NCBI GenBank assembly: GCA_963681505.1 | Contig: OY811988.1 | Span: forward strand, 434,001-498,000 | DNA: 64,000 nt | Source of the DNA: Eunapius fragilis | Taxonomy: Eukaryota > Porifera > Demospongiae > Spongillida > Spongillidae | Direction: 5' to 3' | Shown here: piece after piece, positions 5,139-62,729 of the stretch | How the letters are laid out: each line of letters opens with the position of its first letter | Numbering within the stretch: the stretch's first letter is position 1 | Notes under the pieces: model-generated | What the model saw: the letters and a program-made list of their open reading frames with translations, nothing else | Databases searched by the model: none | Told to the model about the DNA's origin: nothing | Made by a program: the position numbers and the translations under genes

Positions 5139-8100
5139 GAAAATGAGGAATTAAAGTCTCAAGTTTCTTTGTTAAGAGCACAGGTTAGTTACATTCGGTG
5201 TTTATGTACATGTACACATATGTACAATGTGTTTTTAAGTTTCCATTCTATGCTGAATTTTAGAAAGTGTGCTTCTCCCTACATGTACGTCTTAAATGTG
5301 CATGTTGAAGTTACAAAGTACTGTACGGGTATCAGCACTGCCAAGTAGGTGCATATATCCAACTTTACCATGCAATAGTGCGATGTGGTGATCCAATTTA
5401 TCTTGTCAAAACTAAAATTGTCTTCCACACTGTACACAGATATGGTAGTACGTGTATACTGGTGTACAAGGAGGGTAATGTAATTACATATACTTGATTA
5501 TAGATTCAGGCTTATAAAGAAGACTTTGAAAATGAGAGAAAAGACAGAGCAGCTGCCAATGATAAGTTGACTGAGTTTAAGGAACAGCTCCAAGCTAAGG
5601 AGGGTGAACTTGCTGAGGTAAAATGTCAACTCCAGAACAGTGAAATGACAGTGATGCAGCTAGAAGGACTAACAATGGAACTAGTGGCAGCCAAAGAGGA
5701 TCGCATAGCAGTGAAGGTAGCCCAGGTGAAGCAGTACCAGTTCTACGTGCTTTATCTTATTAAAAACATGCACCCAATGTGTTTCTGATGTTTTTGTTAG
5801 CTGATTGGCATGAAATTTTGCGTACCAGAGATAATGGCAATTTCAAGCTAGTTACTACATGGATATGGCAATTATCTATTGTGGAAAGGGTGCAGTGGCT
5901 TGCAACTCCTAAGTACTTACCCAATTATGTTAGCAACACATTCTATGAATGATGTATATACACTTTCCTTTAACAATAGGTTGCAAGTTAAGGCGACCAT
6001 ACACTAGGCAACATGTTGCTTGCAACGCTATGGATTCCAGTAAAATATCAGTAAACTTATGTTTAAAATATTATTGCATTCACATTGAGTTGCACGCAAC
6101 ATTGGTGCCTAGTGTATGGTCGCTTTAAGAATGATATTTATATGTTTGCAACTGCCTACACATGTATGTAATCGTACAAGTGTGTTGATAAGTACATTTC
6201 TGCCTCTATATGTTTAGGAAGATGATGAGTTTGTTGCTGGGTTAAGAGCACAGGTTAGTTGTACTTTAATTGAATGTACATGTTGGTTATATACTTGGTG
6301 TTCATTGTACCTGTATAACTCTGTATAAATTTAGTATGCACAACTGCACTAATGAGCTGCACATTTGTCAAATGTATTGATAAAACAAAACACACATTTC
6401 GTGTTACTATGATTGCTGTACTGTGTGTGTGTGAGTGCTTCTCAAGCATAATGTAATACCAAGATATGAGGACTTTATTTTTACACCCTTTACTTGCATG
6501 TACAATGTACAGGTATCATGTCAGTGTTCAAAATAATGGCCGGACATCTATCAATTTCCGATCAATTTGCGCATATGACCGCGCAACTTGCATTAGAGCT
6601 GGTCATTTGGTTGGACCATTCCTTTGTGTTGCACTGTAGTATTAATAACATTGTAGTTATGATAGCAATTGTGATATGCATGATAACTTCTAACCACGTG
6701 GATTGTGACAACAGCTGTTAGCACACACATTAATTTGACCATATCAGCATATAAGATTATGACAGCACAGAGGAAGAGGAAATGGATATGCTCAAAAACT
6801 GGAATGACTGGATGGCTCCTTTACCTTCAGATAGTGACAACGATTAATTGTATCTAGATCTAGCATTTAACTTCACACCTTTTCTACAAACGTACATGTT
6901 TATACATGCATATACATATTAGGATGTCCGAACTAATCTGACAAATGTCCGCCCAAAGTTAATATTGGTCTGCCAAATGTCCGATCCTTATTTTGAGCAC
7001 TGCATGTTATCAGTATACTGGTGAACATGGCAGTATGGTACTATATAGTTTATCTGCATGTTGATTATAGATTCAGGCTTATAAAGAAGACTTTGAAAAT
7101 GAGAGAAAAGACAGAGCAGCTGCCAATGATAAGTTGACTGAGTGTAAGGAACAGCTCCAAGCTAAGGAGGGTGAACTTGCTGAGGTAAAACACCAACTCC
7201 AGAACTGTGAAATGAAAGTGAATCAGCTAGAAGGACTAGCAATGGATCTAGTGGCAGCCAAAGAAGAGATAGCAGTGAAGGTGGCCCAGGTGAAGCAGTA
7301 CCAGAAGCAGGTGGAGGCTTACAAACAACAGGTTTGTGGAATTGGTTAATTGTTGCAGGTGTGTTCGAACGACTGTAAATCAATTTTCGATTTTTTTTTT
7401 GGTGTGGTAAGAATTTTACCATGGTACCCACGAAATTAAGTTTATTATTAGTTTTCAACTTCACCTCACAGTTAACAGTTGTGATAACCCAATTTGTGAT
7501 ACACCTCTGGTGTATGTCAACCTGACCCCTAAAGTAACCATACTGATTCTACATGCATTGTGGGTTCAATGTGAGTTGTTGTTCCCATAGCAACAGTGGC
7601 CCTTGCTTATACAGGAGTATTTATAATGCCGCATATGAGTACTATTGGAGCTTTTGTAATGGTCCATTTATTCATCAAGGTACAGTTGAGTGGTTCAGGA
7701 CAATTGCAACAGCTGTACAGCCAGGAGAGGGAGACCAACATACATCTGATGAAAGAAATTGAGCAACTTAGGAAGAGACTTGAACATGCCTCTTTAGCTG
7801 GGAGAGAAATATATACGTGTACATGCAGGGTAAGCTGTATGTCCAGATGTGTGCATGCATGTGTGTGTGTGTGTGTGTCTGTGTGTGTGTGTGTGTGTGT
7901 GGATGGCGTTATGGTTGGTGGCAGGTGCATTTAGTATGAGTGTTTGAGCACATGCAAGCTTCGTAGTTAAGTTGCTTTTTTAAAACTAAGGCAAGTTATC
8001 TGCTGTGAATAGAGTTTAACATACTGCTTCATATATAAATGTATTTCTCAAAAGCTACCACCTTCCTTATGATGTTTCTAACGTTTTATGTAAGTGCTCT

Positions 8101-8534
8101 AATGCATTAACTTCCAGAGTCCCTCAGACCTCCCACCCCCAATTTGGCATGGATCATGGGCTTCAAAAGGTTACTATGAGCTTCTCATGCATGTGGGTGT
8201 GGTTTGATTGTCTCTATCCTCAAACCTAGCCAATTCACAACCCGCCCGCCATGTCCACGCCAACAGCCATGATGGCCTCCCAGAGCCAAATAGACCCAAT
8301 GTGCACCATCTCTGTAGTCCATTTGGTCACCTCCCGCCAAATGCCAGGGCAGTGCCACACCCCATGGCCCCCAGTGGGTACGGCAATGTGGAGGCCGATG
8401 GAACGATGTCATTGGCTGAAACCAATGCCCCCTTTGACACCAACCTGACCTGCCCAGTGTGTGGAAGGATGTTCAGGGTTGGAGAGATACAGATATATAG
8501 GCAGCATGTGGACCAGTGCCAGCATGCATTGTGA
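5139..8534 (+). CDS. Gene H: NEMO/optineurin-like ubiquitin adaptor (UBAN coiled coil + CCHC zinc finger), 5' end not found
   Basis: Predicted phase-0 exons: 5139-5183, 5504 to about 5725, 6218-6253, 7071-7331, 7680-7829, and a last exon starting between about 8118 and 8270 and ending at 8534. The joint LLRAQ | IQAYKEDFENERKDR reproduces the UBAN signature (aliphatic-rAQ then YxxDFxxERxxR) by which NEMO, ABINs and optineurin bind linear/K63 ubiquitin. The 25-residue module shared by the array follows, then a further coiled coil (LQQLYSQERETN), then a C-terminal finger LTCPVCGRMF...YRQHVDQC, CxxC-x14-H-x3-C. Exons 1-2 and 3-4 are a tandem duplication of the UBAN cassette. Reading the last exon from the best acceptor (8118) meets a TGA at 8205, so its true start is unresolved or the gene is damaged there. 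The family role, scaffolding of ubiquitin-dependent signalling, is inferred. Confidence 0.68.
5504..5786 (+). other. First UBAN-exon copy of gene H with altered 3' end
   Basis: Nearly identical to the exon at 7071-7331 through the UBAN part. The final module is cut: after GTGAAGCAGTACCAG the sequence diverges and the usual ending and donor are gone. An internal CAG|GTGAAG at 5725/5726 could serve as a phase-0 donor, giving a 74-codon exon; otherwise the frame runs to a TGA at 5786. It could be an alternative or dying exon. Confidence 0.55.
5990..6126. repeat. Hairpin MITE in gene H intron
   Basis: GGCGACCATACACTAGGCA at the left and TGCCTAGTGTATGGTCGC at the right are inverted repeats bounding about 137 bp. 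Confidence 0.75.
7861..7901. repeat. (GT)n microsatellite in gene H intron
   Basis: GT run with one CT interruption directly after the donor of the 7680-7829 exon. Confidence 0.85.
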
Positions 8535-16406: not shown

Positions 16407-16622
16407 TCTGCCGCCACTGGTGGACTTCTAAATGAGGTTATATGAAAGCACTTACAAGTCACCTCAGCCTCACCATCATGAGGCAGGGCAAATTTGGCAA
16501 GGCGTGTCCCACCAACCACCCGTTGTGACTTTTAGTTGTAGTGCTTTCTATAAAAATATTTGAGTATGTACCCTGTTGACGTATTACTAGTAATGTGTAT
16601 GGTGTTATTTTGTATAGATACT

Positions 16623-16746
16623 ATGGAGACAGAAATTAGAAAACTAAGGGCAGAAATTAAAGAGTTAAACGAACTGCACACGTGTATGGTAAGTAATTTG
16701 TATTGCACGCACACCCACAACACACCCACCCATGCACGCACGTACA

Positions 16747-16833
<87 letters not shown>

Positions 16834-19800
16834 GTAATTCAGTTCAATCTGTACTCAGCTGAAAATAATTTTATTTATTGTGCATGCTATAATTGTGAAC
16901 CAGTTTACTGGGTGAACTAGCATGTGTGAAGAAATGCTGACTGTTATATAGTTTTCATTATACTCAAATGAGGCTTTGGTGTTACTCCAGATGTGCATGA
17001 CATTAAGATTAAATGATATGTCTTTTACTTAGAGTCTCAAACGTTCGATCCCCCACATCGCATTTATAAAGTTACACCATTTGTACATGAACTACTTTCC
17101 ATCCACATTTTGTGGGTTGTATTTAACACTGCACAAATGGAAACATGGGAATGAAATAAGCAGATAATAAAAGAAAAAGATGGATAGGATTTCAATTTTC
17201 AAATGGGAATCCTGCTTTCAGAGCAGGATAGGTCCACTGACTTCCCGTGATAGGAGGACCTTGAGCCTTTTTGTCTCCCACTGGGTGTTAAGGTATCACT
17301 CTTGGCCCACATAAAAAGATTGACGACTGAATGAGTGACTTACTTCTTCTTAATAGGAATGGGAGGGTTGCTTTTGGGTTAAAAGTCACGCGGGCTTAAC
17401 ATCATGCGTGTACACAAGGAGAGGTTGTATGGGTGTAAGGTTTAATCATTAATTATGCATGTAGATATAATTTATAGATGCGTGCTGTATTAATTAATAC
17501 CGGGTTCTTGTCTGCTAATTTGATCTTTTATGTTTCTGTAACAAAGTTGCAACAATATGAAGAGGACTTTAAACATGAAAGGGAGGACAGAATTAGAGCA
17601 ATTGAAGAAAGGTTAAGGATTGAAAATGAGTATAAAGCTTATAAAGAAGAAAATCGCAAAGTGAGGTGCATGGGTGAACATAATAGTGGGCTGGTGTGTT
17701 ACATAGAATATGACATCAGTATTCATTAGGAATATGATCATGCACAAATATAATGCCTGTAATTACAAATGACGCAGACTTAATTTACCACTCTGCTGTG
17801 TATTACATGCTATAATGTTAGGCAAAGGTGGATACCATGGCAAAAAATTGTTTGAAACCATTTAGAGAAGTAAAAACGCTTTATTGCAAGATCAGAATAA
17901 GCAGCTGAGAAGGGAGAACGATGAATTGAAAGTCAAGGTAACTGAAATGTATTTTTTGGTTGATTTTTGTTCACACCCAATATCACTGAAATCACTGTGA
18001 ATATTATGTATCGCTGCTTCTCACCAGTACTTAACGAATGATGTAAATTGTGTAATCCATCGATCTAGACGTCCGTGGATCTGGGTACCAAACTATCGGA
18101 GAGCAAAGTTAACTTTGACGTCGCTCGATCAAACATCATGCCTGTGCTATTGTTAAAACATCGTCTCGAGTGGTATTTCCCACGTCGTTTCGCTTTCTTT
18201 CTCAGACGTGAAGGCATGTCGAGAAAAACAACTTCACTGACAAATAGGTTTCACACCAAACGACGATTGAAGCATCAAAGAGTTTCTTTAGTTGGTCACT
18301 ATTAACTTTTAAAACTACTAATTAGCTTTTATTAATCACTGGCATGTATTTTGGTTCAATAGCATAATTTTTCCATGCTCAGCTCTGGAGTTATACCAGT
18401 TCTATACCAATTCAAATATTTTGCATGACTTTCCAATCACCCTATACATTAATTTTGATATTTAATTATACGTCTTACACTGACCGTATAGTTGATTGGT
18501 TAAATCATTTGCTACTGCGCCTGTAGCTTTCTTGTTTGGTATCGAAAATTCTACACTTGTCAAGATTCTTCCGTAATGATAAGAGTAGCGCTTAGTACCG
18601 CCCTAATGTAACAATACAATTACCAAAATATACCATCGTCTATTTGATCACAGTAGGCACACTTCCAGTCAATTCCGAAGCTACTGGGTGAAATTTCCAT
18701 TCTTTAAATTCCTATCCCGAGTTAAGCGTGGTCAAGAAGGAGAAGAAGAAGTCCAGACGAGGAGGATAATTCCGGGATTGCATGGGTACGAGGAGGGGCA
18801 GTATCCTTTAGTTCTCTACAACCGCGCGGTTTTGAGACATAAAAAAACGGCTGATTTTCAGGAGTCTCGTTATAAACGGGTCGTGTATTTTTTATGATTT
18901 TATAGTTGGGTCAAATCCTGTATATGGAAGTTTCTAGCGAAACTTCCGATACAACCAGAGTATACTTCCATAATTAACATGTATCAGCTAATGTGGTTAT
19001 AATGTGTCGTATTCGATTCCAGCTATAATGCATGTGTATCACTAGCATCCTTACTATTACTATTTATACACGAGATCGAGACAGAGTCCAATATAACTAC
19101 CCCACAATTTAAAATTTACCGTGAAATGTAGAGTTGATGATCATTCTATGGACTATCACAAGATTTTCTAAGCCATTTCAAAGCACGTTGTCAAAATATA
19201 AACCATCTTAGCCATGCGGTACAACTATAAGTGTCAATAAAATACAAATACACAACAACTGTACTGAGCAGATGAGATCGCTCTTTATTTTGCTGACTAG
19301 AAAAAAAGGGAAAAAATGATTATGTCCCAGTTATATACGTTTGTGAACTATCTTTCAGACATAGACTGATGCTTGCACATTTTCCAGTTAGCTACTTGTG
19401 AGAAGGATCTGAATGAAACAAAGCATCAGCTTGCTTTGTTGAAGATAAACCATGAGGCCATGGAGATACTAATGCAGAAACAGAGTGTAGATTGTGCTGC
19501 ACAGATAACTTCAGCCAAAGAGGAGATAGCAGTGAAGGTGGCCCAGGTGAAGCAGTATCAGAAGCAGGTGGAGGCTTACAAACAACAGGTACTACAATTA
19601 TCAGCTTTTGCATGTGTGCAAAATGCGTGCAAGTGATAAACAATTTTCCTTTCGTGCATCGGAGTAGCCAATGTGGGCATTAGTTATGGAGCAAATAAAT
19701 GTCATATTTTCACTATTACTTTCTACTTGTTCAATGATAGACTTGACTTAATATCACTACTAAACTCCTAAATCAAGCACACTAGCTAAGTGGCAAAACG

Positions 19801-20352
19801 TAGTTCTGAATCATAGGGATGGGGATACAGCCAATATTCCTGATGTATGTTTTTTAACACCTCATTATCCCACTCCAGAATGAATTTACAATATCCCCTC
19901 AACAGTCAGGATCCAATGATACATTAATTGAGCCTTTAAGAAATGAGAAGACTACTGCTGCAGTCAATGGTGACGTTGCAGATAAGCTATTGCTTTCCAA
20001 TCTTTCATCAGCTACATTATCACCTTGCTGTGAACCTGATGGAGGTGCTCATACAGATGATACAGATGATGGTAGTGACGATGACCTCCCTTCTCCTGTA
20101 CATCCCCAGCAGATGTATCATCTTAGTGCAGTTGGAGTGCATGATGCTCCAGTAGAACACACCAATGAGGCTCCTCCTCCCTCCACTTTAGGCCTAATGC
20201 AGGACATTGGAAGTACAGATGGTAGAGGGTTTGAAGAGACAAACTCACCAGCACCATTGGATCCTAACCTGAAATGTCCTAAATGTGCTAAATACTTCAA
20301 GAAGGGAAGAATCCAGAAATACAGGCATCATGTGGAGAAGTGCAAATGTTAG
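16623..20352 (+). CDS. Gene A: NEMO/optineurin-like UBAN + CCHC finger protein, five coding exons, about 308 aa
   Basis: Exons 16623-16688 (METEIRKLRAEIKEL...), 17547-17660 (LQQYEEDFKHEREDRIRAIE), 17866-17937, 19388-19588 and 19879-20352 all begin and end in phase 0 with AG/GT borders and join into one frame of 22+38+24+67+157 codons. YEEDFKHEREDR is the UBAN ubiquitin-binding signature of NEMO, ABIN and optineurin. The fourth exon ends with the array's invariant coiled-coil module. The last exon is an acidic/proline-rich linker ending in LKCPKCAKYFKKG...HHVEKC, a CCHC finger like the C-terminal finger of NEMO/optineurin but with two extra residues before the His. No kinase exon is seen upstream. 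Likely a soluble coiled-coil ubiquitin-chain adaptor; signalling role inferred. The ATG lies 5 nt after an acceptor-like TATAG, so a 5' exon may exist. Confidence 0.82.
16749..16832. repeat. (CA)n microsatellite in gene A intron 1
   Basis: Nearly pure CA run of about 84 bp; gene B intron 1 carries a shorter one at the same place. Confidence 0.95.
18070..19060. repeat. Dispersed intronic block (relatives at 39640-40510, 48460-48700, 63330-63690)
   Basis: Shared pieces include GTTAACTTTGACGTCGCTCG, CAAATAGGTTTCACACCAAA, TCTGGTTTGGTATCG-like and GCGAAACTTCCGAT segments in the same order. The copies are diverged and have no common open frame, so this is a repeat rather than a gene. Confidence 0.65.
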
Positions 20353-27385: not shown

Positions 27386-30300
27386 ATGACATGGAAACAA
27401 ATGGCATGCATTAGTGCACTAGAGGAAGAGAACAGACTTCTAAGATCACAAGTTTGTATTGTAGTTTTGGATGCTGCATGGAATGTTTTTTTAATATTAT
27501 TATTGCATTGGTTTTAATTAATTGATACGAATGCCAACAAGCAGTATATGGTACCTTTTCCTACCCTACTGGTAATGAGATAAATAATGAATGTTTTATG
27601 CAAGATTGAAAACCTATGTAATTTTTTTCTCATATAAATTCATATGGGTCACCCATAGTGATGGTCTTACAACCACACTGATGCCTGATTTTTGGATTAC
27701 TGCCACAGTTGGTTCAGTACGAAGATGACTTTAAGACTGAAAGAGCAGACAGAACTCGAGCAGTTGAAGCAAAGTTAAAGATTGAAGAACAATTTAGAGC
27801 TTATAAAGAAGCCAATGAAGTCCAGTTAACACAGCTCAATGAGCGGGTACGACCACTGATATTCAAATGTACAATTATTGTCATATAATGAATTACATAA
27901 TAATATTATCCATTCAGGTCGCTGAAGATTAATCTAGTCAGAGATGTTAAAAGTTATGGAAATGTGTAGCATCAATTTGCAGATATAGTCTAAGCCTGGG
28001 TAATCAATGCTTTTATGCTTTATTCTTGCTTAGCAGATTTAAATATCAATGTGAGAATTTTGATTTTGTTTAATCCAAGTGACAGTTTTGCATATACATA
28101 TAGGAGATCATGGCAAAGCACCCCTTGAGTGGTGGACTGGGCACCCATTGCTCATGTCTTTGAGGGTTATTGAAGGCACATTATAATAGAGTCATATGAT
28201 TAAGGGGTGAATGGCATTGTTGACCATGGTATTGGAGGCCTACAATGTTCTTACAAGGGTTGAACAATATTTTATTCACGCACACAATTTGACCATAAAT
28301 ACACCAAGACATGGATGAGAAGTGGGTGTACCATTCACCCATGACTTGAAATTGTGTGCTTAAATAAAACATTGTTCAACCCTTGTAGGAGCATTAGCTA
28401 ATTATTCCATTAAGCTCTTCCAGCAGTATTCATTATGACATTACTATGCTCTGCAGGTAAATGATATGATATCAACAATGATGAAAGGAAGCAACACTGT
28501 TGCACAGCTAAGAGAAACATCAAAAGTGAGTTCATATATATATATTGGAAGTTTCGCTAGAAACTTCCATGTAGGATTTGACCCAGACTATGGATATAAT
28601 GGTATGCTAAAGATGGGAAATATGTCACTGTGTCAAAGGTTTAATATATGGACACAATTGGTGCACACCTAATTGGCTTTTAAGTGACATGTAGAATGTA
28701 TAAACATAAACATTCAATAGTCCTTTCAAAGGTTGAAAGGTTGAAAGGCTTAACTTTTTTTATCCAGCTATTGAATGGTTTCAATCATTTTAGGATGAAC
28801 ATCAAGCTTCTCTGGTAGAGAAGGAAAAGAATGATGATCTTATGATGAAGATCAGGGTACTACAAAGCCTGGTAAGAATTTACCCAGTACTCTCCCGAGA
28901 ACCAAAAAATATAAGAGAGAAGTAATGATGCTTTTGATTGCATAATTAATGACTGTGTGAACAGCAGAAAAGACATTTCTACCATTCTACCACCCCAGAA
29001 CATAATGGTGCCCAGCTGTAGTCATAAAATGATTTACTATGTTGATTATAAAATGCTACATTCATCACTGCTATTCAGTGGGCTAATTTTAAAGTTATTT
29101 TGTGTTTCAGGTGGATGATTACAAACAGCAGTTACATATCCGTCTAAAGGAATCCACTGCTGCGAAGAGATCGTTACAGCAATTGGAAAGTGACAGCAGC
29201 TCTACAGAGGAAGTGTTGAAGGAAGTAATAAGTAAGCTTCAAAAACGTCTATACCAAACTAGTTTTGAACTAGAAGCAGCCAAGGAGGAGATTGCAGTGA
29301 AGGTGGCCCAGGTGAAGCAGTACCAGAAGCAGGTGGAGGCTTACAAACAAAAGGTTGGGTTCAAGTAGCTAAATAAGAAATTTCAACATATTATTTGCAC
29401 ACATCTCATGTTTGTACATGCGTTTAGTGAAGTCATTTGCAATGCACTGTGTCCTCTACATAATTGTACCGTCAATGTAGATCCCATGGCATATCCTTGA
29501 TGGGGTATTTATAACACTGCATAATTGTGCCTTAAATGTAGATCCCACCTGATGGGGTATTTATAATTGACCTTAAATATAGAACCCATGGCATATCACT
29601 GATGGGACATTGATAAATAAGAAGTCCACACCATGGAGTATTTTTAAAGCTGTAGGGTATACGGCTTTAAAAGAGAAATTCATATCTATAGAAGCCCTCA
29701 GCTGCACCCATTCCAGCTGATATGAATATGTTAAATCCAGGATGGCTGTACATGTTCTGCATAACAAATGGAATAATCACCCATGCACTCTTATACCAAA
29801 GGCTGCACTCTGGTGCAAGTAGTACATCTATATAGCTATAGCTGCTGTTCTTTTGCTCAAGTTAAACTTGCAGCCCTGTTGCTAATTTTGATTATTTGTA
29901 CCACAGCAGCTTGGTCTGTTTTAAGTGTATGCCCTAATGTTCAGTTTATTCTTATTCAACAGTTTCATAACCTATTCTATCAAACAGGGGGATTTTCACT
30001 CGATTTGAGAGTGTCTTTGTGCCATAATTTAATGCATGTGATTGCTTTCATGCATTTGTATACAGTTATGTTCACAGCAATTTTAGCGTCTCTTCTGTTG
30101 CTATTTGCATTTGCTAAATAGATCAGTACGATGCAGTATAATCTGCTCTTTTTACTCTCCACCTACATTCTTACAGTGCCAATTGTCAAATGAAATGCTT
30201 CAGGCATGTTGGTCACCAGATGTTGGGCAGCCTCACAGTGGAGCGACCTCACCTACTGAGCCAGTGCACCCTAAACAAATGGATCCATCTCCACAGGAGC

Positions 30301-30746
30301 AACCAAAGGCCACCATTGATACCAATGACAAGGCACATGTACCTAAATTGGCATCATTGGCTGCTACTCTAGTTCCACCTTGCTGTGAACCTGATGGATG
30401 TACTCATACAGATGATACTGTTGATGTTAGCGACGATGACCTCCCTCCTCCTATCTACCACCAACCATTCCAGCAGATATATCACCTTAGTGCAGATAGA
30501 GTGCACAATGGTGTTCCCCTATCTGACCAGGAGGCCTTACAGCTAGTAGAACACACCAATAGGGTTCCTCCTCCCTCCACTTTAGGTCTAGTGCAGGACA
30601 TTGGAAGTACAGATGGTAGAGGGTTTGAAGAGACAAACTCACCAGCACCATTGGATCCTAACCTGAAATGTTCTAAATGTGCTAAATACTTCAAGAAGGG
30701 AAGAATCCAAAAATACAAGCATCATGTGGAGACATGTGGGAGATAG
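27386..30746 (+). CDS. Gene C: NEMO/optineurin-like UBAN + CCHC finger protein, six coding exons, 387 aa
   Basis: Exons 27386-27451 (MTWKQMACISALEEEN...), 27709-27846 (LVQYEDDFKTERADRTRAVE), 28457-28525, 28794-28871, 29111-29353 and 30177-30746. All junctions are phase 0 with standard borders; codon counts are 22+46+23+26+81+189. LLRSQ | LVQYEDDFKTERADR is the UBAN signature across an exon joint, as in gene H. Exon 5 is coiled coil ending in the shared 25-residue module. The last exon has a Ser/Pro/acidic linker (DDTVDVSDDDLPPP) and ends with LKCSKCAKYFKKG...HHVETC, the CCHC finger. The ATG chosen is the first in frame after an upstream stop in the same exon. It is almost exon-for-exon identical to gene F. 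Ubiquitin-chain binding is inferred from the motif. Confidence 0.85.
28145..28392. repeat. Intronic segment inverted relative to gene F
   Basis: Contains the hairpin arms GGGTTGAACAATATTTTATT and AATAAAACATTGTTCAACCC. Its core (CATGGATGAGAAGTGGGTGT and flanks) is the reverse complement of 53163-53420, although the exons around both are collinear. Confidence 0.75.
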
Positions 30747-33548: not shown

Positions 33549-41963
<8,415 letters not shown>

Positions 41964-41976
41964 GTGTGTGTGTGAT

Positions 41977-42060
<84 letters not shown>
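41964..42060. repeat. (GT)n microsatellite at the truncated gene B exon
   Basis: GT run beginning exactly where the conserved module is interrupted; the first GT acts as a potential splice donor. Confidence 0.95.
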
Positions 42061-42061
<1 letters not shown>

Positions 42062-42510
42062 AAATGTATATAAAGGCACCGGTCCCATCCCCCACATCCC
42101 TTTACATAAATAGTCCATTGCGGGAGGTTATCTCGGGGCAAACCATTATATGGGTTACATCAAGCTTTAAAAAATAATAAACATACCAAATTTTAAAAAA
42201 ATTATTTACAAATGTTAAATAACAAATATCTTTCATAAGTATGATGATGATCATTATTTTGGCGCCTTCACATATTTTGATACCCCCCCCCCCTAAGGCC
42301 ACACTGCCATTGGATGTACCCAATTTCATTTGAAGGGAGATTATATTTATTATGCTTACATGCTTTCCAAAGCATTAATATGTTAAGAGTACAATGTACA
42401 TGTATTAATGAGGGCCACTAGCTTAGAATGCAAGCATTCACAAGTTAACCATTGCTTTCCGAGCCATTAACTGTGTAAGTGACTTTTGCGCACTTTAGAT
42501 ACAAGGGCAA

Positions 42511-45500
42511 ATGGCAGGACACGACTACTACACAATGCACACATTGGAGGGTCTTGATGAAAGAAAGGTTGTAGGTGGTGGATCATATGGAGCTGTTTAT
42601 GAAGTCATGATGAATGGAACACCTTGCATTGCTAAGAAAGTCCATGACATTCTAGTAGGCCAGGGAGGTCATGTTCCAGTTGGAAGTGATGAAGTAGAGG
42701 CTATAAGAGAGAAATTCCATGTAGAATGTTCACTCCTTAGTAAACTAAAGCATCCAAACATTGTTCAATTCTTGGGTATATTTCATGATAAAGATGATGA
42801 TGTGCTTCTAATGGAATTCATGCCCATGGACCTAGCTAGGTGTTTGGACACTTGTATGAAGCAGAAGTACAACATTCCACTTCCAATAAAGCTGTCCATC
42901 CTCCAGGATGTGACCAATGGGCTGCTTCACCTTCATTCATTAGCTCCACCCATCATCCATCGTGACCTTACAGCAGCCAACATTCTCCTCACATCTGACA
43001 TGAGAGCTAAGATAGCTGACCTTGGAGTGTCTAAAGTATTTGATTTGAAACAAATGCAAAAAATTCAGCACACCAAAGCTCCAGGCACTCCAGCATACAT
43101 GCCCCCAGAGGCACTACTCCCAAAGCCAAATTATAATTGTCAGCTAGATATATTTTCATTTGGTGTTATAGCTCTGTATATAGCAACACAGGATTTCCCT
43201 AGTCCTCATGAAGTACTACTGACCACAACTGTTGTTAGGCAGAAAAGACAACAGATCTTTAAACGTCAGCATTGGATAGATAAAATGGGAGAGGACCATC
43301 TTCTTTATCCTATAGTGGTTCATTGTCTGCAAGACCTACCAGAGGACAGGCCTACTACCAGGGAACTCTGGGAAGCTATCAGCTGCCTGCGTACTGAACA
43401 CAAGAAGGGTTGGAACAATATGTTGGAGGTACATTAAGGGAGCATGATATTCAAGATTTGGTCATGGTATCTATGACGTTTTATATTGAAAGCTGCTTCT
43501 TTAGCAGTTATTCATTACTAGTAATCTAAGGATTGCATTGACTTCCGGCTATCTTTAAGCCATATCATGAAATCATGTTCTGTATTTCGCATCTTCATGC
43601 GAATACTTATTTTACATGGCAACAATGCTCACTAATACATTGATGCTTTGCTTGACACATGGCTTTGTTTTTAACAACCAGATAATTAAATAGCATTATG
43701 TATTAATTATGATTACAGTAACATTAATACATGTATGTACCTCTATGTCATCTCGGAAAATTTATAGCTTCTTATGGAGAATGAAAAACTGAAGGTGCAT
43801 ATTGGATTACTTGAAATGGCCAACAACCAACAGGTACATGTAATTGTGATATTTGTAACACTTCAGCAAGATAAATGCATTTCACTACATGTACACAGTA
43901 TTGTTTATGCATTGCAAATCAATACTGCACATACATGGAAGTGCAGGTGTATGTATAATACATTTTCTGCTCATATCAAAGAGATCGTTACAGCAATTGG
44001 AAAGTGACAGCAGCTCTACAGAGGAATTGTTGAGGGAAGTTATAAGTAAGCTTCAAAAACGTCTAGACCAAACTAGTCTTGAACTAGAAGCAGCCAAGGA
44101 GGAGATAGCAGTGAAGGTGGCCCAGGTGAAGCAGTACCAGAAGCAGGTGGAGGCTTACAAAAAAAAGGTTGGGTACAAGTACCTCAATTTTAGCTAAATA
44201 AGAAATTTCAACATATTATTTGCACACATCTCATGTTTGTACATTTAGTGAAGCCATTTATAATGTACTGTGTCCTGATATAACACTACATAATTGTACC
44301 TTAAATGTAGAACCCATGGCATATCCATGATAGGGTATTGATAAATAACAAGTCCACACCATGGAGTGTTGCTGTAGGGTATAGGGCTTTAAAAGAGAAA
44401 TTCATATCTATACAAAGCCCTCAGCCGCACCCATTCCAGCTGCTATGTTGCTATATATACATATGTTAAAATTAATCAGAAGTAGTATGATTGACACCTG
44501 ATATGATTTGCTAATTATCCACGATTGCTGTACATGTGCTGCATAAAAAATAGAAAAAAAAATCACCAATGCACTCTTACCAAAGCTGCACTCTGGTACA
44601 AGTAGTACATCTATATAGCTATGGCTGCTGTTATTTTGCTCAAGTCAAACCTGCAACCCTGTTGCTAATTTTGAATATTCATATATATACGTACCACAGC
44701 AGCTGGGTCTGTTTTAAGTGTATGTCCTAATGTTTATTCTTAGTCAACAGTTGAATAACCTATTCTGTCAGACAGGGGGATTTTCAATCGATTTGAGAGT
44801 GTCTATGTGCCGTAACTTAATGAATGCGGTTGCTGTCCTGCATTTGTTCGACTCCTCTGTTGCTATTTGCATTTGCTAAAGCAATCAGTAAAATGCAGTA
44901 TAATCTGCTCTTTTTACCCTCCACCTAAATGCTTACAGAGCCAGTTGTCAAATGAAATGCTTCAGGCACGTTGGTCACCAGATGTTGGGCAGCCTCACAG
45001 TGGAGCGACCTCACCTACTGAGCCAGTGCACCCTAAACAAATGGATCCATCTCCATGGGAGCAACCAAAGGCCACCATTGATACCAATGACAAGGCACAT
45101 GTACTTAAATTGGCATCATTGGCAGCTAATCAAGTTCCACCTTGCTGTGAACCTGATGGAAGTACTCATACAGATGATACTGTTGATGTTAGCAACAATG
45201 ACCTCCCTCCTTCTATCTACCACCAACCATTCCAGCAGATTTATCACCTTAGTGCAGATGGAGTGCACAATAATATATATGTTCTCCTATCTGACCAGGA
45301 GACCTTACAGCTAGTAGAACACACCAATAGGGTTCCTCCTCCCTCCACTTTAGGCCTGGTGCAGGACATTGGAAGTACAGATGGTAGAGGGTTTGAAGAG
45401 AAACACACACCAGCACCATTGGATCCTAACCTGAAATGTCCTAAATGTGCTAAATACTTCAAGAAGGGAAGAATCCAGAAATACAGGCATCATGTGGAGA

Positions 45501-45514
45501 CATGTGGGAGATAG
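42511..45514 (+). CDS. Gene E: TKL-type protein kinase fused to NEMO/optineurin-like coiled coil and CCHC finger, four exons, about 581 aa
   Basis: Exon 1, 42511-43428, encodes a full kinase domain: glycine loop GGGSYG (22-27), Lys42 in CIAKK, alphaC Glu72, HRDLTAAN (150-157), DLG (170-172) and PPE (198-200), with Asp213 and Arg280. All catalytic residues are present; HRDLTAAN and GTPAYMPPEA point to the TKL/RIPK-like group. LE|gtacat is a phase-0 donor; read through, the frame ends three codons later. Exon 2 (43768-43833, LLMENEKLKV...), exon 3 (43982-44167) and exon 4 (44939-45514) follow in phase 0. Exons 3-4 match gene C exons 5-6: coiled coil, invariant module, acidic linker and LKCPKCAKYF...HHVETC finger. 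The UBAN DFxxER exon is absent unless gene B exons are spliced upstream. Predicted role, inferred: kinase recruited by a NEMO/optineurin-type scaffold in cis. Confidence 0.82.
43982..44167 (+). other. Gene E exon 3: shortened C-type exon with new acceptor
   Basis: Homology with gene C exon 5 starts at AAGAGATCGTTACAGC, in the middle of that exon. In E the AAG just before the homologous sequence serves as the apparent acceptor (TCATATCAAAG|AGATCG), keeping phase 0. The 19 upstream residues of the C-type exon are missing. Confidence 0.65.
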
Positions 45515-45954
45515 TGTCGAATCAATAATCCCAAGTATGTTTGTCCTATGTTTAGCAGTGTATTTGGCTCATAGTTTGCCATGATGCATATGTCAGTGTA
45601 AGTGCTGATGAGATAATAATTATCTTTTGTAGTAAACATCTATTATCCGATACACATCAACTTTTCAGCCAAAGACGTCACGTGAGCGGACTGCAAAATG
45701 TTTGATGTGCGATGCTATGGTTTGTCGCTCATCGCCAAGTTGGCTTGTGTTGGTATTCACCTTTTCTGTACGCTCAGGATATGGATACAAACTATTCCAT
45801 CACGCGGGTGGCATGGATGTTTAAAAATGGGCGGGGGAATGTTTACTGCATGGTCACTGCCACAGACACCACTGGCTGTCTGTTTTACTAACATGCGTCT
45901 ATACCTGGTACTAGTTATCTAAATTTTTGTATCATCACACTTGTATTCTATATA

Positions 45955-46689: not shown

Positions 46690-46854
46690 TACTATGTAGT
46701 GGTATTTGTTGCCACCACCAAGAATCAAAAACATCATTATGCGTAGCATGCACATTCCATAGAGGGGATACCAGTAATTAATCCAAGAGCATATTCTTAG
46801 TGTTCACATCGGAGGAATAAGCGCTGTTTTATATAGCAATCTGTTGCGCGCATA

Positions 46855-47550: not shown

Positions 47551-47882
47551 TAACAGTAAGGGAAAATTCCTAAATATTGTGTTTAGTCTGTGGTGTGATA
47601 GGAGGACCTTGAGTGTTTTTGTCTCCCACTGGGCGTTAATGATACTTGGCCCACATAAAAAGATAGATGACTGAATGAGTGACTTTACTTATCCTGAATA
47701 GGAATTGGGAGTGTTAAGTTCTGGTTAAAATTCACGCAGGCTTAACATCGTGCGCGTACACAAGGAGAGGTTGGGTATAAGGAACCAATAATTATGCGTG
47801 TAGATATAAAATTATAGATGCATGCTGTACTAATACTGGGTTTTTGTCTGCTAATTTGATCTTTTATAGTTCTATAACAAAG

Positions 47883-50529
47883 GTGCAACAATATGAAGAG
47901 GACTGTAAACATGAAAGAGAGGACAGAACTGGAGCAGTTGAAGAAAGGTTAAGGATTGAAAATGAGTTTAGAGCTTATAAAGAAGACAGTCCTGTTCCGT
48001 CGACGGGCAAAGCTCATGAGGCACAATTCTTGTGCATGGGTGAACACAATAGTGGGCTGGTGTGTTAGATAGAATATGACATCAGTATTCATTAGTAATT
48101 TGATCATGCACAAATATAATTCCTGTAATTACAAATGACGCAGACTTAATTTAGCACTCTGCTGAGTATTGCAATGCTATAATGTTACAAGGTTGGATAC
48201 TATGGCAAAAAATTGTTTGAAACCATTTATAGAAGTTATAGAAACACTTTGTTGCAAGATCAGATAAAGCAATTGAACGATGAATTAAAAGTCAAGGTAA
48301 CTGAAATGTCTGTTATGTATTATTATGTAAATAATTGTATGCATTAGCGTATAAGCTGTGTTTGTTAAATATGCATCCTCTCCTATACAAGTACTAAAAG
48401 CATTCTCAATGAGAAAGTTGGTGGTATATAGGATTAAAATTGGTGGAAATACGGTACATAAAATAAACGATGAAATTACTCACTTTTGTCTTCTCGTTCG
48501 ATTACAACAACTATACCTAAAACGATTTGATGATTCATAGTCGGGGGCATATTCTATATGGACGTTTCTAGCGAAACTTTCCGATATAACAAAAGTAGCT
48601 CCATGATTTACACGTATCAGCTAATGTGGTAATAATGTGTCGTATTCGATTCCAACCATAATGCATGTGTATCACTAGTATCCTTACTATTACTTTTTAT
48701 GCACTAGACAGAATCTATATAACTACTCCGCAATTCTGTGAAATGTAAAGTTCACGATCATACCACGGACTATCAATTATAGAGTCTAAGAATATAAACC
48801 ATTATAACCATACAGTACAACTATACGTGTCAATAAAATACAAATACACAACAACTGTACTGAACAGATGAGATGCCCTTTATTTTGCTTACTAGAAAAA
48901 AGAAAAAAATGATTATGTCCCAGTTATATACGTTTGTGAAGGATCTTTCAGACATAGACTGATGCTTCCATATTTTCCAGTTAGATACTTGTGAGAAGGA
49001 TCTGAATGAAACAAAGCATCAGCTTGCTTTGATGAAGACAAACCATGAGGCCATGGAGATACTAATGCAGAAACAGAGTGTAGATTGTGCTGCACAGATA
49101 ACTTCAGCCAAAGAGGAGATAGCAGTGAAGGTGGCCCAGGTGAAGCAGTACCAGAAGCAGGTGGAGGCTTACAAACAACAGGTACTACAATTTTCAGCTT
49201 TGGCATGTATACAAAATGGATGCAAGTGATAAACAATTTTCTTCTCGTGCATCGGAGTAGCTAATGTGGACATTAGTTATGGAGGAAATAAATTCATATT
49301 TCAAGTTCACCATAACTTTCTACTTGATAGACTTAGTCTTAATATTACTACTAAACTCCTAAATCAAGCACACTAGCTAGGTGGCAAAACGTAGTTCTGA
49401 ATTATAGGGATGGGGATACAACCAAGAATAACCATTATTCCTGATGTATGTCATCTAATACTATAATTTCCATCGTACGTATGTATGTCCTACGTAAGTA
49501 CGTACGTCCGCGTAACTGATTTATATACTCGGTCTAGCGCCTATTGGTTGCTATGTATGTTCGCGTACCTAGCAACCAATAGGAACGACCACCTCCCACA
49601 CAAAAGTACATAGAATGCGTACTTAGAGACCATGCTTGCCATAAAACCTACTTGCCTGTACAGGCCATCACAATTAAACCAACGCTATTGTGGTGGTTCA
49701 CTCTCAAGTCTCATAGTACAGGCCGCAAACATGTAGTTACTAATGATTTCATGAAGTATTTGTATTGCGCGAGCATTTTATAGAGGTTGCGTAGTAACCG
49801 TATGTTAGAACAGGTGGTATGCAACATTTGGTAAAACAGTAAAAAAAGGGGAGCTAGGAGGTAGACCAACTGTTCATCTGGCAAATGAATAGCGAGACGA
49901 ATAACAGCGAGACGAATAATCAACCCGTGATTTTTCACGGGGACACACTAGTATAGTATATATTTAACAGCTATTTATCCCACTCCAGAATGAATTTATT
50001 ATATCCCCTCAAACAGTCAGGATCCATTAATACATTAATTGAGCCTTTAAGAAATGAGAAGACTACTGCTGCAATCAATGGTGATGTTCCAGATAAACTA
50101 TTGCTTTCCAATCTTTCGTCAGCTACAATATCACCTTGCTGTGAACCTGATGGAGGTACTCATACAGATGATACAGTTGATGTTAGCGATGATGACCTCC
50201 CTCCTCCTATCTACCACCAACCATTCCAGCAGATATATCACCTTAGTACAAATAGAGTGCACAATGGTGTTCCTCTATCTGACCAGGAGGCCTTACAGCT
50301 AGTAGAACACACCAATAGGGTTCCTCCTCCCTCCACTTTAGGCCTAATGCAGGACATTGGAAGTACAGAGGGTAGAGGGTTTGAAGAGACACACTCACCA
50401 GCACCATTGGATCCTAACCTGAAATGTCCTACATGTGCTAAATACTTCAAGAAGGGAAGAATCCAGAAATACAGGGAACATGTGGAGAAATTAGATAAAA
50501 ATCATACAGTGATAATGCATACGGCATGA
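47883..50529 (+). pseudogene. Gene D: A-type UBAN/zinc-finger pseudogene
   Basis: Remnants correspond to gene A exons 2-5: 47883 to about 48020, about 48229-48296, 48981-49181 and 49989-50529. Lesions visible: the DF of the UBAN motif is DC (VQQYEEDCKHERED) and an Arg is Gly; the exon-2 donor GTGAGG is replaced (CTCATGAGG); the exon-3 acceptor TTTAG is TTTAT; the last exon has an extra A (CTCAAACAG versus CTCAACAG), which from phase 0 leads to a stop within 14 codons; and the zinc finger lacks its final Cys (EHVEKLD instead of HHVEKC). No exon 1 is found. Only exon 4 with the shared module is intact. Confidence 0.8.
49540..49583. repeat. Short hairpin, 17-bp arms
   Basis: CCTATTGGTTGCTATGT and ACCTAGCAACCAATAGG are inverted around GTTCGCGT. 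Confidence 0.75.
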
Positions 50530-52562: not shown

Positions 52563-55500
52563 ATGACATGGAAACAAATGGCATGCATTAGTGCATTAGA
52601 GGAAGAGAACATGCTTCTAAGATCACACGTTTGTATTGTAGACTTGGCTTCTGCATGGGTTTTATTTTACTATTGTTGAAGTTAGTTTGATACCAATGGC
52701 AGCACGCAGTATATGGTACCTTTTCCTACCCTACTGCCAATAAGATGCATGAGATAAATGTTGTATATGCAAGATTGAAAACTGTGTAGTTTTTTTCTCA
52801 CATAAATTCATTCAGTGTCACCCATAGTGATGGTCTTACAGCCACATGCCTGATCTTAGAATTATTGACACATCTAATATAGTTGGTTCAGTATGAAGAG
52901 GACTTTAAGATTGAAAGAGCAGACAGAACTCGAGCAGTTGAAGCAAAGTTAAAGATTGAAGAACAATTTAAAGCTTATAAAGAGGCCAATGAAGTCCTGT
53001 TAACACAGCTCAATGAGCGGGTACAACCACTGATATTAAAATGTACAATTATTGTCATATATAAAATAATATTGACAATCCATTCAGGTCGCTGAAGGTT
53101 AAATTAGTCAGAGATGTTAAAAGTTAATGAAATGTGTAGCATTGATTTATATAATCAATAGTTCCTACAAGCAAAGGGTTGAACAATGTTTTATTTAAGT
53201 GCACAATTGGTCGGTCATCAAGTCATGGAAGAATGGTACACTCACTTCTCATCCATGTCTTGATGTATTGATGGTCAATTGTATGCAGAAATGAAACATT
53301 GTTCAACCCTTGTAAGAATATTGAAGGTCTCCAATACCTTGGTCAACAATGCCATTCACCCTTAATCATATGACACTATTATAATGTGCCATCAATAACC
53401 CTCAAGACATGAGCAATAATAAGCATAAAAGCAATCTAAAATACATTAGCTAATTATTCCATTAAGCTATTCCAGCAGTATTCATTATGACATTACTATG
53501 CTCTGCAGGTAAATTATATGATATCAACAATGATGAAAGGAAGCAACACTGTTGCACAGCTAAGAGAAACATCAAAAGTGAGTTCATATAAATTGGAAAT
53601 TTTGCTAGAAACTTTCATATAGGATTTGACCCCAACTATGAATATCATATTAAACGGGTGGGAAATATGTCACTGTGTCAAGGTCTAATATATGGACAAA
53701 ATTGGTGCACACCTAACTGTACAGCTATTTCAGTATGTGACAATGTAGTATTTATAACCATATACCTTCAACAGTCCTTTCAATGGTTGAAGGTTGAAAG
53801 GATTAACTTTAATTCAGCTATTGTTTCAATCATTCTAGGATGAACATCAAGCTTCTCTTGTAGAGACAGAAAAGAATGATGATCTTATGATGAAGATCAG
53901 GGTACTACAAAGACTGGTAAGCATTTACCCAGTACTCTCCCGAGAACCAACAATATAAGAGAGAAGTAATGATGCTTATGATTACATAATTAATGACTGT
54001 GTGAACAGCAGAAAAGACATTTTGCCATTCTACCATCTCAGAACATAATGGTGCCCAGCTGTAGTCATGAAATGATTTACTGTGTTGGATATCAAATGCT
54101 ACATTCATCACTGCTATTCAGTTGGCTCAGTAATGTTAAAGTTATTCTGTGCATTCAGGTGGATGATTACGAACAGCAGTTACCTATCCGTCAAAAGGAA
54201 TCCTCTGTAGCAAAGAGATCATTACAGCAATTGGAAAGTGACAGCAGCTTTACAGAGGACGTGTTGAAGGATGTTATAAGTAAGCTTCAAAAACGTCTAG
54301 ACCAAACTAGTCTTGAACTAGAAGCAGCCAAAGAGGAGATAGCAGTGAAGGTGGCCCAGGTGAAGCAGTACCAGAAGCAGGTGGAGGCTAACAAACAACA
54401 GGTTTGTGTACAAGTACCTCAAATTTAGCTAAATAAGAAATTTCAACATATTATTTGCACACATCTCATGTTTGTGCATTTAGTGAAGTCATTTATAATT
54501 ACTGTGTACACTACATAATTGTACCTCAAAGTAGACTGATCCCATGGCATATCTGTGATGGGGTATTGATAAATAACATACAAGTCCACACCATGGAATG
54601 TTTTTAAACCTGTAGGGTATAGGGCTTTAAAAGAGAAATTCATATCTATAGAAGCCCTCAGCTGCACCCATTCCAGCTGATATGAATATGCTAATAATCC
54701 AGGATGGCTGTACATGTTCTGCATAACAAATGGAATAATCACCCATGCATTCTTATACCAAAGGCTGCACTCTGGTGCAAGTAGTACATCTATATAGCTA
54801 TAGCTGCTGTTCTTTTGCTCAAGTTGAACTTGCAGCTCTGTTGCTAATTTTGATTATTCGTACCACAGCAGCTTGGTCTGTTTTAAGTGTATGCCCTAAT
54901 GTTCAGTTTATTCTTATTCAACAGTTTCATAACCTATTCTATCAAACAGGGGGATTTTCACTCGATTTGAGAGTGTCTTTGTGCCATAATTTAATGCATG
55001 TGATTGCTTTCATGCATTTGTATACAGTTATGTTCACAGCAATTTTAGCGTCTCTTCTGTTGCTATTTGCATTTGCTAAATCGATCAGTAAAATGCAGTA
55101 TAATCTGCTCTTTTTACCCTCCACCTACATGCTTACAGTGCCAGTTGTCACATGAAATGCTGCAAGCATGTTGGTCACCAGATGTTGGGCAGCCGCACAG
55201 TGGAGCGACCTCACCTACTGAGCCAGTGCACCCTAAACAAATGGATCCATCTCCACGGGAGCAACCAAAGGCCACCATTGATTCCAATGACAAGGCACAT
55301 GTATCTAAACTGGCATCATTGGCTGCTACTCTAGTTCCACCTTTCTGTGAACCTGATGAATGTACTCATACAGATGATACAGTTGATGTTAGCGACGATG
55401 ACCTCCCTCCTCCTATCTACCACCAACCATTCCAGCAGGTATATCACCTTAGTGCAGATGGAGTGCACATTGGTGTTCTCCTATCTGACCAGGAGGCCTT

Positions 55501-55708
55501 ACAGCTAGTAGAACACACCAATAGGGTTCCTCCTCCCTCCACTTTAGGCCTGGTGCAGGACATTGGAAGTACTGATGGTAGAGGGTTTGAAGAGACACAC
55601 TCACCAGCACCATTGGATCCTAACCTAAAATGTCCTCTATGTGGAATAGTCTTCAAGAAGGGAAGAATCCAGAAATACAGGGATCATGTGGAGACATGTG
55701 GGAGATAG
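52563..55708 (+). CDS. Gene F: NEMO/optineurin-like UBAN + CCHC finger protein, six coding exons, 387 aa
   Basis: Exons 52563-52628, 52883-53020, 53509-53577, 53839-53916, 54159-54401 and 55139-55708 have exactly the same codon counts as gene C (22+46+23+26+81+189) and all-phase-0 junctions. LVQYEEDFKIERADRTRAVE is the UBAN signature; the finger reads LKCPLCGIVFKKG...RDHVETC, CxxC-x14-H-x3-C, differing from C in residues between the cysteines and the basic patch. The first exon is open back to a good acceptor (TTCACAG at 52526), so an upstream exon is possible. The intron before the last exon is almost identical to that of gene C, pointing to recent duplication or conversion. Part of intron 2 is inverted relative to gene C. 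Confidence 0.85.
53163..53420. repeat. Intronic segment inverted relative to gene C
   Basis: Reverse complement of 28145-28392, including the GGGTTGAACAATGTTTTATT arm; see gene C. Confidence 0.75.
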
Positions 55709-60525: not shown

Positions 60526-62729
60526 ATGACGACAGAGGAATGTCACATAATTTCCTTGTTGGAGGGCTTTGAAGAAAGGAGGGTTGTAGGTGGTGGAGCG
60601 TATGGCACTGTTTATGAAGTCATGATGAATGGAACACCTTGCATTGCTAAGACGATTCATGACATTCTAATAGGCCAGAGAGGAAATTTTCCAGTCGGAA
60701 GAGATGAAGTAAAGTCTATAAGGGAGAAATTCCGTAGAGAATGTTCACTCCTTAGTAAACTGAAGCATCCAAACATTGTTCAGTTTTTGGGTGTATATGA
60801 TGATAAAGGTGATGATGTGCTTGTAATGGAATACATGCCCATGGACCTAGCCAAGTGCTTGGACACTTGGAAGGAACAGAACTACATAATTCCACTTCCA
60901 ATAAAGCTGTCCATCCTCCAGGATGTGACCAATGGTCTGCGTCACCTTCATTCATTAGCTCCACCCATCATCCATCGTGACCTTACAGCAGCCAACATTC
61001 TCCTCACATCTGACATGAGAGCTAAGATAGCTGACCTTGGAGTGTCTAAAGTATTTGATTTGAAAGAAATGCTGAAAGTTAATCACATGACCAAAGCTCC
61101 AGGCACTCCAGCATACATGCCCCCAGAGGCACTAGTCCCAGAGCCCAAGTATGATGTTAAGTTAGACATATTTTCATTTGGAGTTTTGACTCTTTATATT
61201 GCCAACCAGGAATTTCCCGATACCGACGAAATGTCACTGACCGAAGATGCTGTTAGGCAGAAAATAGTACAGATCACTAAACGTCAGCATTGGATAGATA
61301 AAATGGGAGAGGACCATCCTCTTTGTCCTATACTTGTCCAATGTCTGCAAGACCTTCCAGAGGCCAGACCTACTACCAGGAAACTCTGGGAAGTTATTAA
61401 CTCTCTGGGTTCTGAACATAAAAAGCATTGGAACACTATTTTGGAGGTATGAATATGTGTACTTCCATCCTTTCGTGATACATGTAGATGTATTTTTGTC
61501 TTAATGCGTTTAGAGACACATGTAGCTTTCATATGCCTATGAATTCATCCTGCAAAATCAGAATCCATGCTTGAGCCAAAGCTTCTGAGCTTTTTGGTGT
61601 GTCTGTGTCTTGTTTCCTATATTGTGTATGGCTTGTACAGTATGCACTGTGAGGGCATACACAATATACTGTAGCTCAGTAAGCATATTGTGATTGCGAT
61701 TTGAATACAGGGATAATCTATTGATCAATATTAAAATGCTTAAATATATGGCAACACTACAACATTTAACAAAGACATCTATCAAAATTTACTAAGCAAA
61801 TAGAACTTTTAAAAGCTGTGGATTGGTTGATGGGGAGGAGATTACTGATCAAAGGGGCGTGTGATTGTCAGCTCTATTAAGAGATCAAAGTGACAAATGG
61901 TACTATGCAGAGTTCATTGAAAAACCAACAGATCGACGAAACTGTTAAATGTCAAGCATGTACATGTACCATGAAGTGGTATGGTGCAGTACTTAGACAT
62001 TACTAACATTTTTTTCCCAGTGTGCCCATTAATCGTTTCATCTAAATATTGATGACTTTTACCAATTGAACTTTCAGCTAACTGCCAAGGAAAAAATTTT
62101 CTCTACTAAGGAAGCTGAAATTACCTTACTAAGGGAAAACCTGGTTTCAGCCAACGAGGAGATAGCAGTGAAGGTGACCCAGGTGAAGCAGTATCAGAAG
62201 CAGGTGGAGGCTTACAAACAACAGGTATTTGCTTAGTTCCATCAACCTTGGCACGATGTATTTGCACATGTACTTGGCTGTCTGTTTCAGTAACATGTGT
62301 CTCTACTTGAACCTGGTACTAGTTATCTAAATTTTTGTATCATCACACTTGTATAATATGTAGTGGTATTTATTGCCACCACCAAGACTTCATTATGTGC
62401 AGCATGCACATTCCATGGAGGGGATACCAGTAATTAATACAGGGGCATACTCTTAGTGTTCACATCGGAAGAATAAGTCAGTAAAATCGCTGTTCCATAT
62501 AGCAATCTCTTGCTCGCGTACTTTCTAGCAAACTGATTGTGAGAAGATTCTGAATGAAACAAAATCTGAGCTTGCGTTACTCAAAATAAACTATGAGGCC
62601 CTGGAGGTACTCACGCAGCAGCAGATAAGCGACCGTGACACACAACTAATGGCAACCAAAGAGGAGATAGCAGTGAAGGTGGCCCAGGTGAAGCAGTACC
62701 AGAAGCAGGTGGAGGCTTACAAACATCAG
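60526..62729 (+). CDS. Gene G: TKL-type protein kinase fused to NEMO-like coiled-coil modules
   Basis: Exon 60526-61446 encodes a complete kinase domain: GGGAYG (22-27), Lys42, Glu72, HRDLTAAN (150-157), DLG (170-172) and PPE, about 75-80 percent like gene E by eye. LE|gtatga is a phase-0 donor as in E. Exon 62078-62224 (LTAKEKIFSTKEAEITLLRE...) and exon 62529-62729 (QTDCEKILNETKSELALL...) follow in phase 0, and each ends with the array's 25-residue module. A possible terminal exon begins at 62829 (ELDLCAVCRVRL..., stop about 26 codons on); it has a CxxC but no full zinc finger, so the true C terminus is uncertain. No UBAN DFxxER motif is visible in this gene. The start ATG lies right after a CAG, so an upstream 5' exon is possible. 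Confidence 0.78.

Follow-up and report, generated by a model that had tools for sequence, protein, structure and literature searches.

In NF-kB and TBK1 signalling triggered by ubiquitin, adaptors and kinases are separate proteins. To our knowledge, the known members of the NEMO family are adaptors without a kinase. They share a UBAN core resembling EDFxxERxDR and long coiled coils, and some of them carry a C-terminal finger. A 2025 review (PMC11854354) lists NEMO, optineurin and ABIN1-3 in this family, with CEP55 as a relative, and the expression "kinase domain" has 0 occurrences in its main text.

The locus described here, called gene E, lies in a window of 64,000 nucleotides of the sponge Eunapius fragilis (the whole stretch of DNA that was analyzed, to which positions refer unless another sequence is named). 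Compared with the NEMO family, with which it has the UBAN core and the long coiled coils in common, the predicted chain of gene E holds a kinase, and a likeness of its finger to that of NEMO is unsupported. It resembles IRAK4, RIPK and other TKL kinases in being a TKL kinase, IRAK4 being its best solved match (4.1e-24), and differs from the IRAK and RIPK proteins by the lack of a death domain in the parts scanned and by the presence of ubiquitin-reading parts in the same predicted chain. In our main reading, to which we give a probability of roughly 60%, gene E encodes one chain composed of a UBAN, a coiled coil, a TKL kinase, another coiled coil and a UBZ-like finger, which would act as a ubiquitin-recruited kinase. 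The kinase-scaffold fusion is very likely, and its function is inferred. What the sequence itself shows is a set of exons that are all in phase 0, a conserved donor after the kinase, the catalytic residues and the homology of the UBAN.

Exon Structure of Gene E

The first-pass annotation had placed a kinase and a NEMO/optineurin-like scaffold in a single gene between 42511 and 45514, with a kinase exon followed by coiled-coil and finger exons. The features of the gene as we model it are the following (a slash marks the exon boundary):

33549..33614, plus strand: probable first coding exon, MEAEIRKLRAEIKELNELHTCM, open frame with donor ATG/gtaagt; homologous stretch in a neighbour near 16.6 kb
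34462..34590, plus strand: UBAN exon, LQQYEEDFKHEREDRIRAVEERL..., phase 0; CC2-LZ, profile and P0089 matches
34784..34858, plus strand: short coiled-coil exon, phase 0, with splice signals; homologous to part of the gene at 16-20 kb
41799..41963, plus strand: coiled-coil exon D, donor AAG/gtgtgt; 86% DNA match to two neighbouring genes, ending at 41963
42499..43428, plus strand: TKL kinase exon, phase-0 acceptor and phase-0 donor; catalytic K, HRD and D of DLG
43768..43833, plus strand: exon e2, kinase-associated coiled coil, LLMENEKLKVHIGLLEMANNQQ, phase 0
43982..44167, plus strand: exon e3, coiled coil, EEIAVKVAQVKQYQKQVEAYK, start at 43982 or 43994; homology to neighbours
44939..45514, plus strand: last exon, coding for a linker and the C2HC finger, with the stop at 45512-45514
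45437..45505, plus strand: finger C-x2-C-x14-H-x3-C, UBZ-like beta-beta-alpha, within the last exon

The kinase frame, the donor after 43428 (GAG/gtacat) and the three exons downstream of it are present and can be joined in phase 0, as first described: the kinase exon, e2, e3 and the last exon each contain a whole number of codons, and together they give an uninterrupted frame of 581 aa up to the stop. The homology of e3 and of the finger exon to neighbouring adaptor genes also held, with 85-89% DNA identity to two neighbours. The gene is probably longer than first described, the UBAN and coiled-coil exons upstream of the kinase belonging to it, and the full order is probably the one given above. 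The model spans 33549-45514 with 8 exons, all in phase 0, and 730 aa before the stop. The UBAN was not found within 42511-45514, its motif being located in the upstream exon 34462-34590. As to the claim of a kinase and a scaffold in one gene, its core is very likely and has counterparts in gene predictions of Ephydatia; the gene is probably larger than was claimed, and it is one member of a family and not a single oddity.

The start of the kinase was also revised. Its frame is open from the ATG at 42511 back to 42499, directly after an AG, and this exon is probably not the first of the gene. The ATG at 42511 as likeliest start was ruled out by the open frame up to the phase-0 acceptor, by kinase copies lacking an ATG and by the Ephydatia model P0089, which are presented below. 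A stand-alone kinase ending after 43428 was likewise rejected as main reading.

Exons D and e3 are both shortened. In exon D, comparison with the neighbours gave 0 indels in the exon for 6 and 5 in its upstream flank, and the donor abuts a (GT)n array; this array (41964-42060) begins exactly at the donor, where the homology to the neighbouring genes ends. Compared with the neighbouring gene, e3 has lost its 5' part and needed a new acceptor; an alternative acceptor (TTACAG/CAATTGG) could move its start to 43994, and the phase is 0 either way. Exons of the e2 type, in phase 0 and starting with LLM or LFM, were found 3' of 4 other kinase copies. The long intron of gene E contains a minisatellite at 36029-36720 (unit of about 18 bp, about 40 copies) and, at 38275-38693, about 140 copies of GCA/CAG with 98% matches.

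Identity of the UBAN and of the Finger

The UBAN exon taken alone matched CC2-LZ at E 2.7e-4, below the Pfam cut-off, and at E 0.008 in the genome search; wherever a score was given, single UBANs remained below this cut-off. A profile was built from 17 such pieces, of which 15 match CC2-LZ at E ≤ 0.1, and was compared with solved structures. It matched ABIN1 (1.2e-6), the best structure match, then ABIN2 (1.7e-6), NEMO (2.6e-4) and optineurin (1.8e-3), which supports the UBAN assignment.

For the finger, the NEMO type that had been proposed is unsupported. The nearest relatives found are the ubiquitin-binding fingers of NDP52 and TAX1BP1, with weak scores, and the best fold match among those listed is the ZF2 of NDP52. 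The beta-beta-alpha fold and the spacing fit the UBZ type of these two proteins, again with weak scores. No NEMO was present among the 35 sequence matches or the fold matches listed, an absence which by itself excludes nothing. Pfam scans of 16 members gave zf-C2H2_4 in 8 (best 0.016) and zf-C2HC_2 in 6 (5.7e-5), as well as weak matches to the autophagy-receptor finger PF18112 in 6 (0.0021) and to UBZ_FAAP20 in 4 (0.0039).

Kinase Domain and Conservation of Its Exon

An HMM search of the kinase part, which the first-pass annotation had proposed, returned Pkinase (3.8e-37) and PK_Tyr_Ser-Thr (3.3e-34), both over the Pfam cut-off. The catalytic residues K42, H150-R151-D152 and D170-L171-G172 (numbering of the 581-aa chain) are in place, and the domain is that of a TKL kinase. 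No death domain was found in Pfam scans covering the kinase, e3 and finger exons of gene E and, among its short 5' exons, the UBAN piece, nor in those of the Ephydatia proteins P0021, P0026, P0089, P0126, P0127 and P0128.

Twelve kinase copies were compared, 2 in the window and 10 elsewhere in the genome. All 12 share the end point of the kinase exon and have GTA directly after it. A genome-wide search for the pattern of this exon end, which left out the donor and allowed at most 1 mismatch, gave 26 places, 22 exact on sequence C18 and one with 1 mismatch on each of C1, C2, C9 and C21. The places on C2, C9 and C21 are not among the kinase matches, and they were lost when GTA was added to the pattern, while the 22 exact C18 places (22/22) and the C1 copy remained. 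The donor is thereby kept after the kinase in 23/23 family copies found by the pattern. Neither the window's second kinase nor the C18:1995 kb copy is similar enough to fit the pattern, but both carry GTA.

Reading through the donor adds 1-20 codons of differing sequence in 12/12 copies, so there is no conserved stop after the kinase exon. Also, DNA similarity to other copies stops 3-8 bases past the exon in 8/8 matches. On the 5' side, a phase-0 AG lies just before the conserved kinase part in 11/12 copies, the exception being C18:1995 kb. After this acceptor no in-frame ATG is present in 7/12 copies, and in 3/12 (C18 39, 126 and 293 kb) none exists anywhere between the preceding stop and the 60th nucleotide of the exon; there the kinase exon must be internal and not a usual first coding exon. 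By these features, the kinase exon appears to be a spliced module inside the gene.

Related Proteins and Ephydatia Gene Models

The fused sequence used as query matched at least 4,167 proteins, with 8,000 candidates scored and 120 proteins listed. Among these 120, the Ephydatia model P0021 covers 98% of the query with 43% identity, whereas coverage is at most 63% for all the others. The majority are frames with a kinase alone or with several kinases, many of them on genomic contigs with the exons apart. The non-kinase part as query retrieved 11 proteins, 6 with a kinase domain, and the scaffold part of P0128 retrieved 8, a kinase being present in 5 of them if P0128 itself is counted. A kinase joined to a UBAN, a coiled coil or a finger occurs in 7 Ephydatia muelleri models (P0021, P0026, P0089, P0126, P0127, P0128 and P0129). 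For example, residues 8-72 of P0089 (EMCRGX_G007126) match residues 3-64 of gene E (48%, E 4.6e-12), and this model contains UBAN, kinase and the same type of coiled coil in the order of gene E, without the finger, while P0128 combines all four parts, kinase, UBAN, coiled coil and finger, in a single model. Compared with gene E, the fused models thus show two orders, scaffold first or kinase first. HRD and DxG residues, read by eye, are missing in P0126, P0127 and P0129, whose kinase domains are probably pseudokinases joined to a UBAN-type scaffold. Finally, a contig of 2,219 bp carries P0052 as an open frame in which a UBAN and a coiled coil precede the kinase and another coiled coil follows it; since homologous parts are split by introns in the present genome, this contig is probably a spliced sequence or cDNA.

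These proteins bear on another reading, in which the kinase would be a gene of its own starting at 42511 or nearby, the scaffold exons would belong to other genes and the Ephydatia fusions would be merged predictions. The Em-numbered Ephydatia models are described as AUGUSTUS predictions trained with RNA-seq (PMC7385117), so tandem neighbours could be merged in them, and kinase-only frames dominate among the 120 matches listed; the ATG at 42511, the similar MAAHDYYT sequence with which P0005 and P0007 begin and the missing acceptor at C18:1995 kb agree with such a gene. However, it is difficult to reconcile with the 3/12 copies devoid of in-frame ATG in the stretch scanned, with a donor present in all 23 pattern copies and followed by an unconserved tail, and with P0052, one open frame on a 2.2-kb contig. 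We regard a separate kinase gene as very improbable, and retain the fused chain.

Gene Cluster and Neighbouring Genes

Other genes of the window contain the same parts as gene E:

5504..8534, plus strand: part of a kinase-less UBAN/coiled-coil/finger scaffold gene
16622..20352, plus strand: kinase-less scaffold gene, type I, like the 5' half of gene E
27700..30746, plus strand: kinase-less scaffold gene, type II, like the 3' half of gene E
47871..50529, plus strand: kinase-less scaffold gene, type I
52875..55708, plus strand: kinase-less scaffold gene, type II
60526..61446, plus strand: second kinase exon of the same kind, donor GAG/gtatga, 75% protein identity
62078..62224, plus strand: coiled-coil exon after the second kinase, phase 0
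62529..62729, plus strand: coiled-coil exon after the second kinase, phase 0

In the first of these genes, the UBAN-coiled-coil exon is a tandem duplicate (5504-5788 and 7071-7349) ahead of one finger exon. The window also contains a minisatellite at 961-1781, open in all six frames, with CPHILLPLVHIS-like repeat units, and long open frames on the minus strand (21813-23717 and 24468-25334) which by eye resemble retroelement reverse transcriptase. An open frame at 46226-46576 resembles, also by eye, a fragment of a RecQ-type helicase, and repeated and inverted copies of one element lie near 41250-41338 and 45953-46693, by this RecQ-like frame. Rfam gave no match in the 64-kb window at gathering scores.

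At the scale of the genome, at least 19 near-full-length kinase copies with at least 70% identity are located on C18 between 40 and 700 kb (15 without stops, 4 with stops), a lower bound with 129/279 candidates scored. They form a single chromosomal cluster, to which gene E belongs and in which kinase-less scaffold genes are also found. Queries made of gene E exons placed all finger matches (25/25) and all coiled-coil matches (37/37) of the genome on C18. The 17 genome matches of CC2-LZ, none over the cut-off, are distributed over C18 (9), C6 (6), C1 (1) and C12 (1). A scan of the DNA downstream of the kinase, over 2.6 kb (1.4 kb in the case of the window's second kinase), showed a phase-0 coiled-coil exon, chosen by eye, in 9/12 copies; none was seen in the 2.6 kb downstream of the C18 616, 693 and 1995 kb copies (3/12). 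The kinase copy at C18:339 kb is followed by coiled-coil, UBAN and finger exons, so the family has two orders, UBAN before kinase and kinase before UBAN.

Further observations were made along these sequences. Matching exons stand in mirror-image order at about 50-67 kb and 108-124 kb of C18, which suggests an inverted duplication. A UBAN-coiled-coil exon is located about 1.8 kb upstream of a frameshift-broken kinase copy on C1 (22936500-22943000). The six weak CC2-LZ (UBAN-like) matches of C6 lie at about 7.05-7.30 Mb, away from the C18 cluster, and the weak match of C12 (about 2.45-2.47 Mb) has two kinase copies with 53-54% identity nearby, at distances of about 9 kb and 18 kb.

The arrangement of the cluster could also reflect alternative splicing, a single all-phase-0 locus giving both kinase-less adaptors and kinase-bearing chains, with the fusion as one isoform. 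This is compatible with our main reading, and we consider it rather unlikely. All 8 exons of the gene E model share phase 0; at C18:126 kb, the scaffold gene lying upstream has retained a finger frame of its own (to 123967), yet the kinase exon, 2.5 kb past that frame, has no in-frame ATG. A strict start-exon scan of the 6 kb upstream of this copy gave one short usable candidate of 11 codons and a second which contains a stop. In gene E, however, no finger exon was seen between exon D (41799-41963) and the kinase exon, and the strict scan also missed the proposed first exon of gene E, which is farther away.

Mosaic Origin and Constraint

Gene E is a mosaic: its part from 33002 to 41963 is like type I, its part from 43974 to 45657 is like type II, and its kinase is like the second kinase of the window. 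In the comparisons made, dS of the scaffold exons is 0-0.09, whereas that of the kinase is 0.22-0.29 against 10/11 copies and 2.4 against the eleventh. Against those ten copies, dN/dS of the kinase is 0.33-0.60. For the finger exon it is 0.73-0.99 against two neighbours, and either constraint on this exon is weak or the copies are too young. Over five comparisons, substitutions amount to 4.5-6.7% in exons and 9.0-11.5% in introns (ratio 0.4-0.7), and 0/4 exon indels break the frame.

The mosaic pattern of type I, second kinase and type II could come from unequal exchange in the array, gene E itself being a decaying and functionless chimera within a fusion family that is real. The difference in dS between scaffold exons and kinase, the stops in 4/19 near-full kinase copies and the shortened exons D and e3 are consistent with such a decay. 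Nevertheless, the 8-exon model is free of stops, frameshifts and lost splice dinucleotides, the exon indels are all in frame, the catalytic residues are intact and the same order is found in P0089, so that we hold a decaying chimera to be improbable and prefer an intact gene encoding the fused chain.

Proposed Function and Significance

According to our main reading, the exons of gene E would be spliced into one mRNA and the coiled coils of the resulting chain would form a dimer. The UBAN and the finger may bind polyubiquitin chains at an activated receptor or on cargo, and this recruitment would bring kinase domains together, leading to their mutual phosphorylation. The activated kinase would then phosphorylate a target further down a pathway of the NF-kB/MAPK-like or autophagy-like type; the UBAN favours the NF-kB-like type, and the NDP52-like finger the autophagy-like one. 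NEMO and optineurin recruit separate kinases, and the gene E chain would do the same in one protein. Several points count against the fusion: P0021 is alone above 63% coverage among the 120 matches listed, exons D and e3 are shortened, 3/12 copies are without a coiled-coil exon in the 2.6 kb scanned downstream, the dN/dS of the finger reaches 0.73-0.99 and single UBANs fall below the Pfam cut-off.

More tentatively, and with less confidence than in the chain itself, we hypothesize that a tandem repertoire of fast-duplicating genes arose in demosponges, with a TKL kinase as a phase-0 exon module that can be inserted into UBAN/UBZ scaffold genes. The resulting ubiquitin-reading kinases and pseudokinases might signal without separate IKK/TBK1, perhaps with adaptor and kinase forms produced by alternative splicing, and could constitute a self-contained, diversifying signalling system of innate immunity.

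In the literature searched (titles and beginnings of abstracts, with few subscription papers), no description of a kinase joined to a UBAN scaffold was found, in agreement with the initial view that a single chain of this type is undescribed. Both halves are of known kinds, and their union in one chain, together with its expansion, appears to be new. A chain joining adaptor and kinase would mean that recruitment can be built into the protein itself, and would allow the switching-on of a kinase by ubiquitin binding to be tested in a single protein. It would also point to a little-studied, expanding family of signalling genes in sponges.
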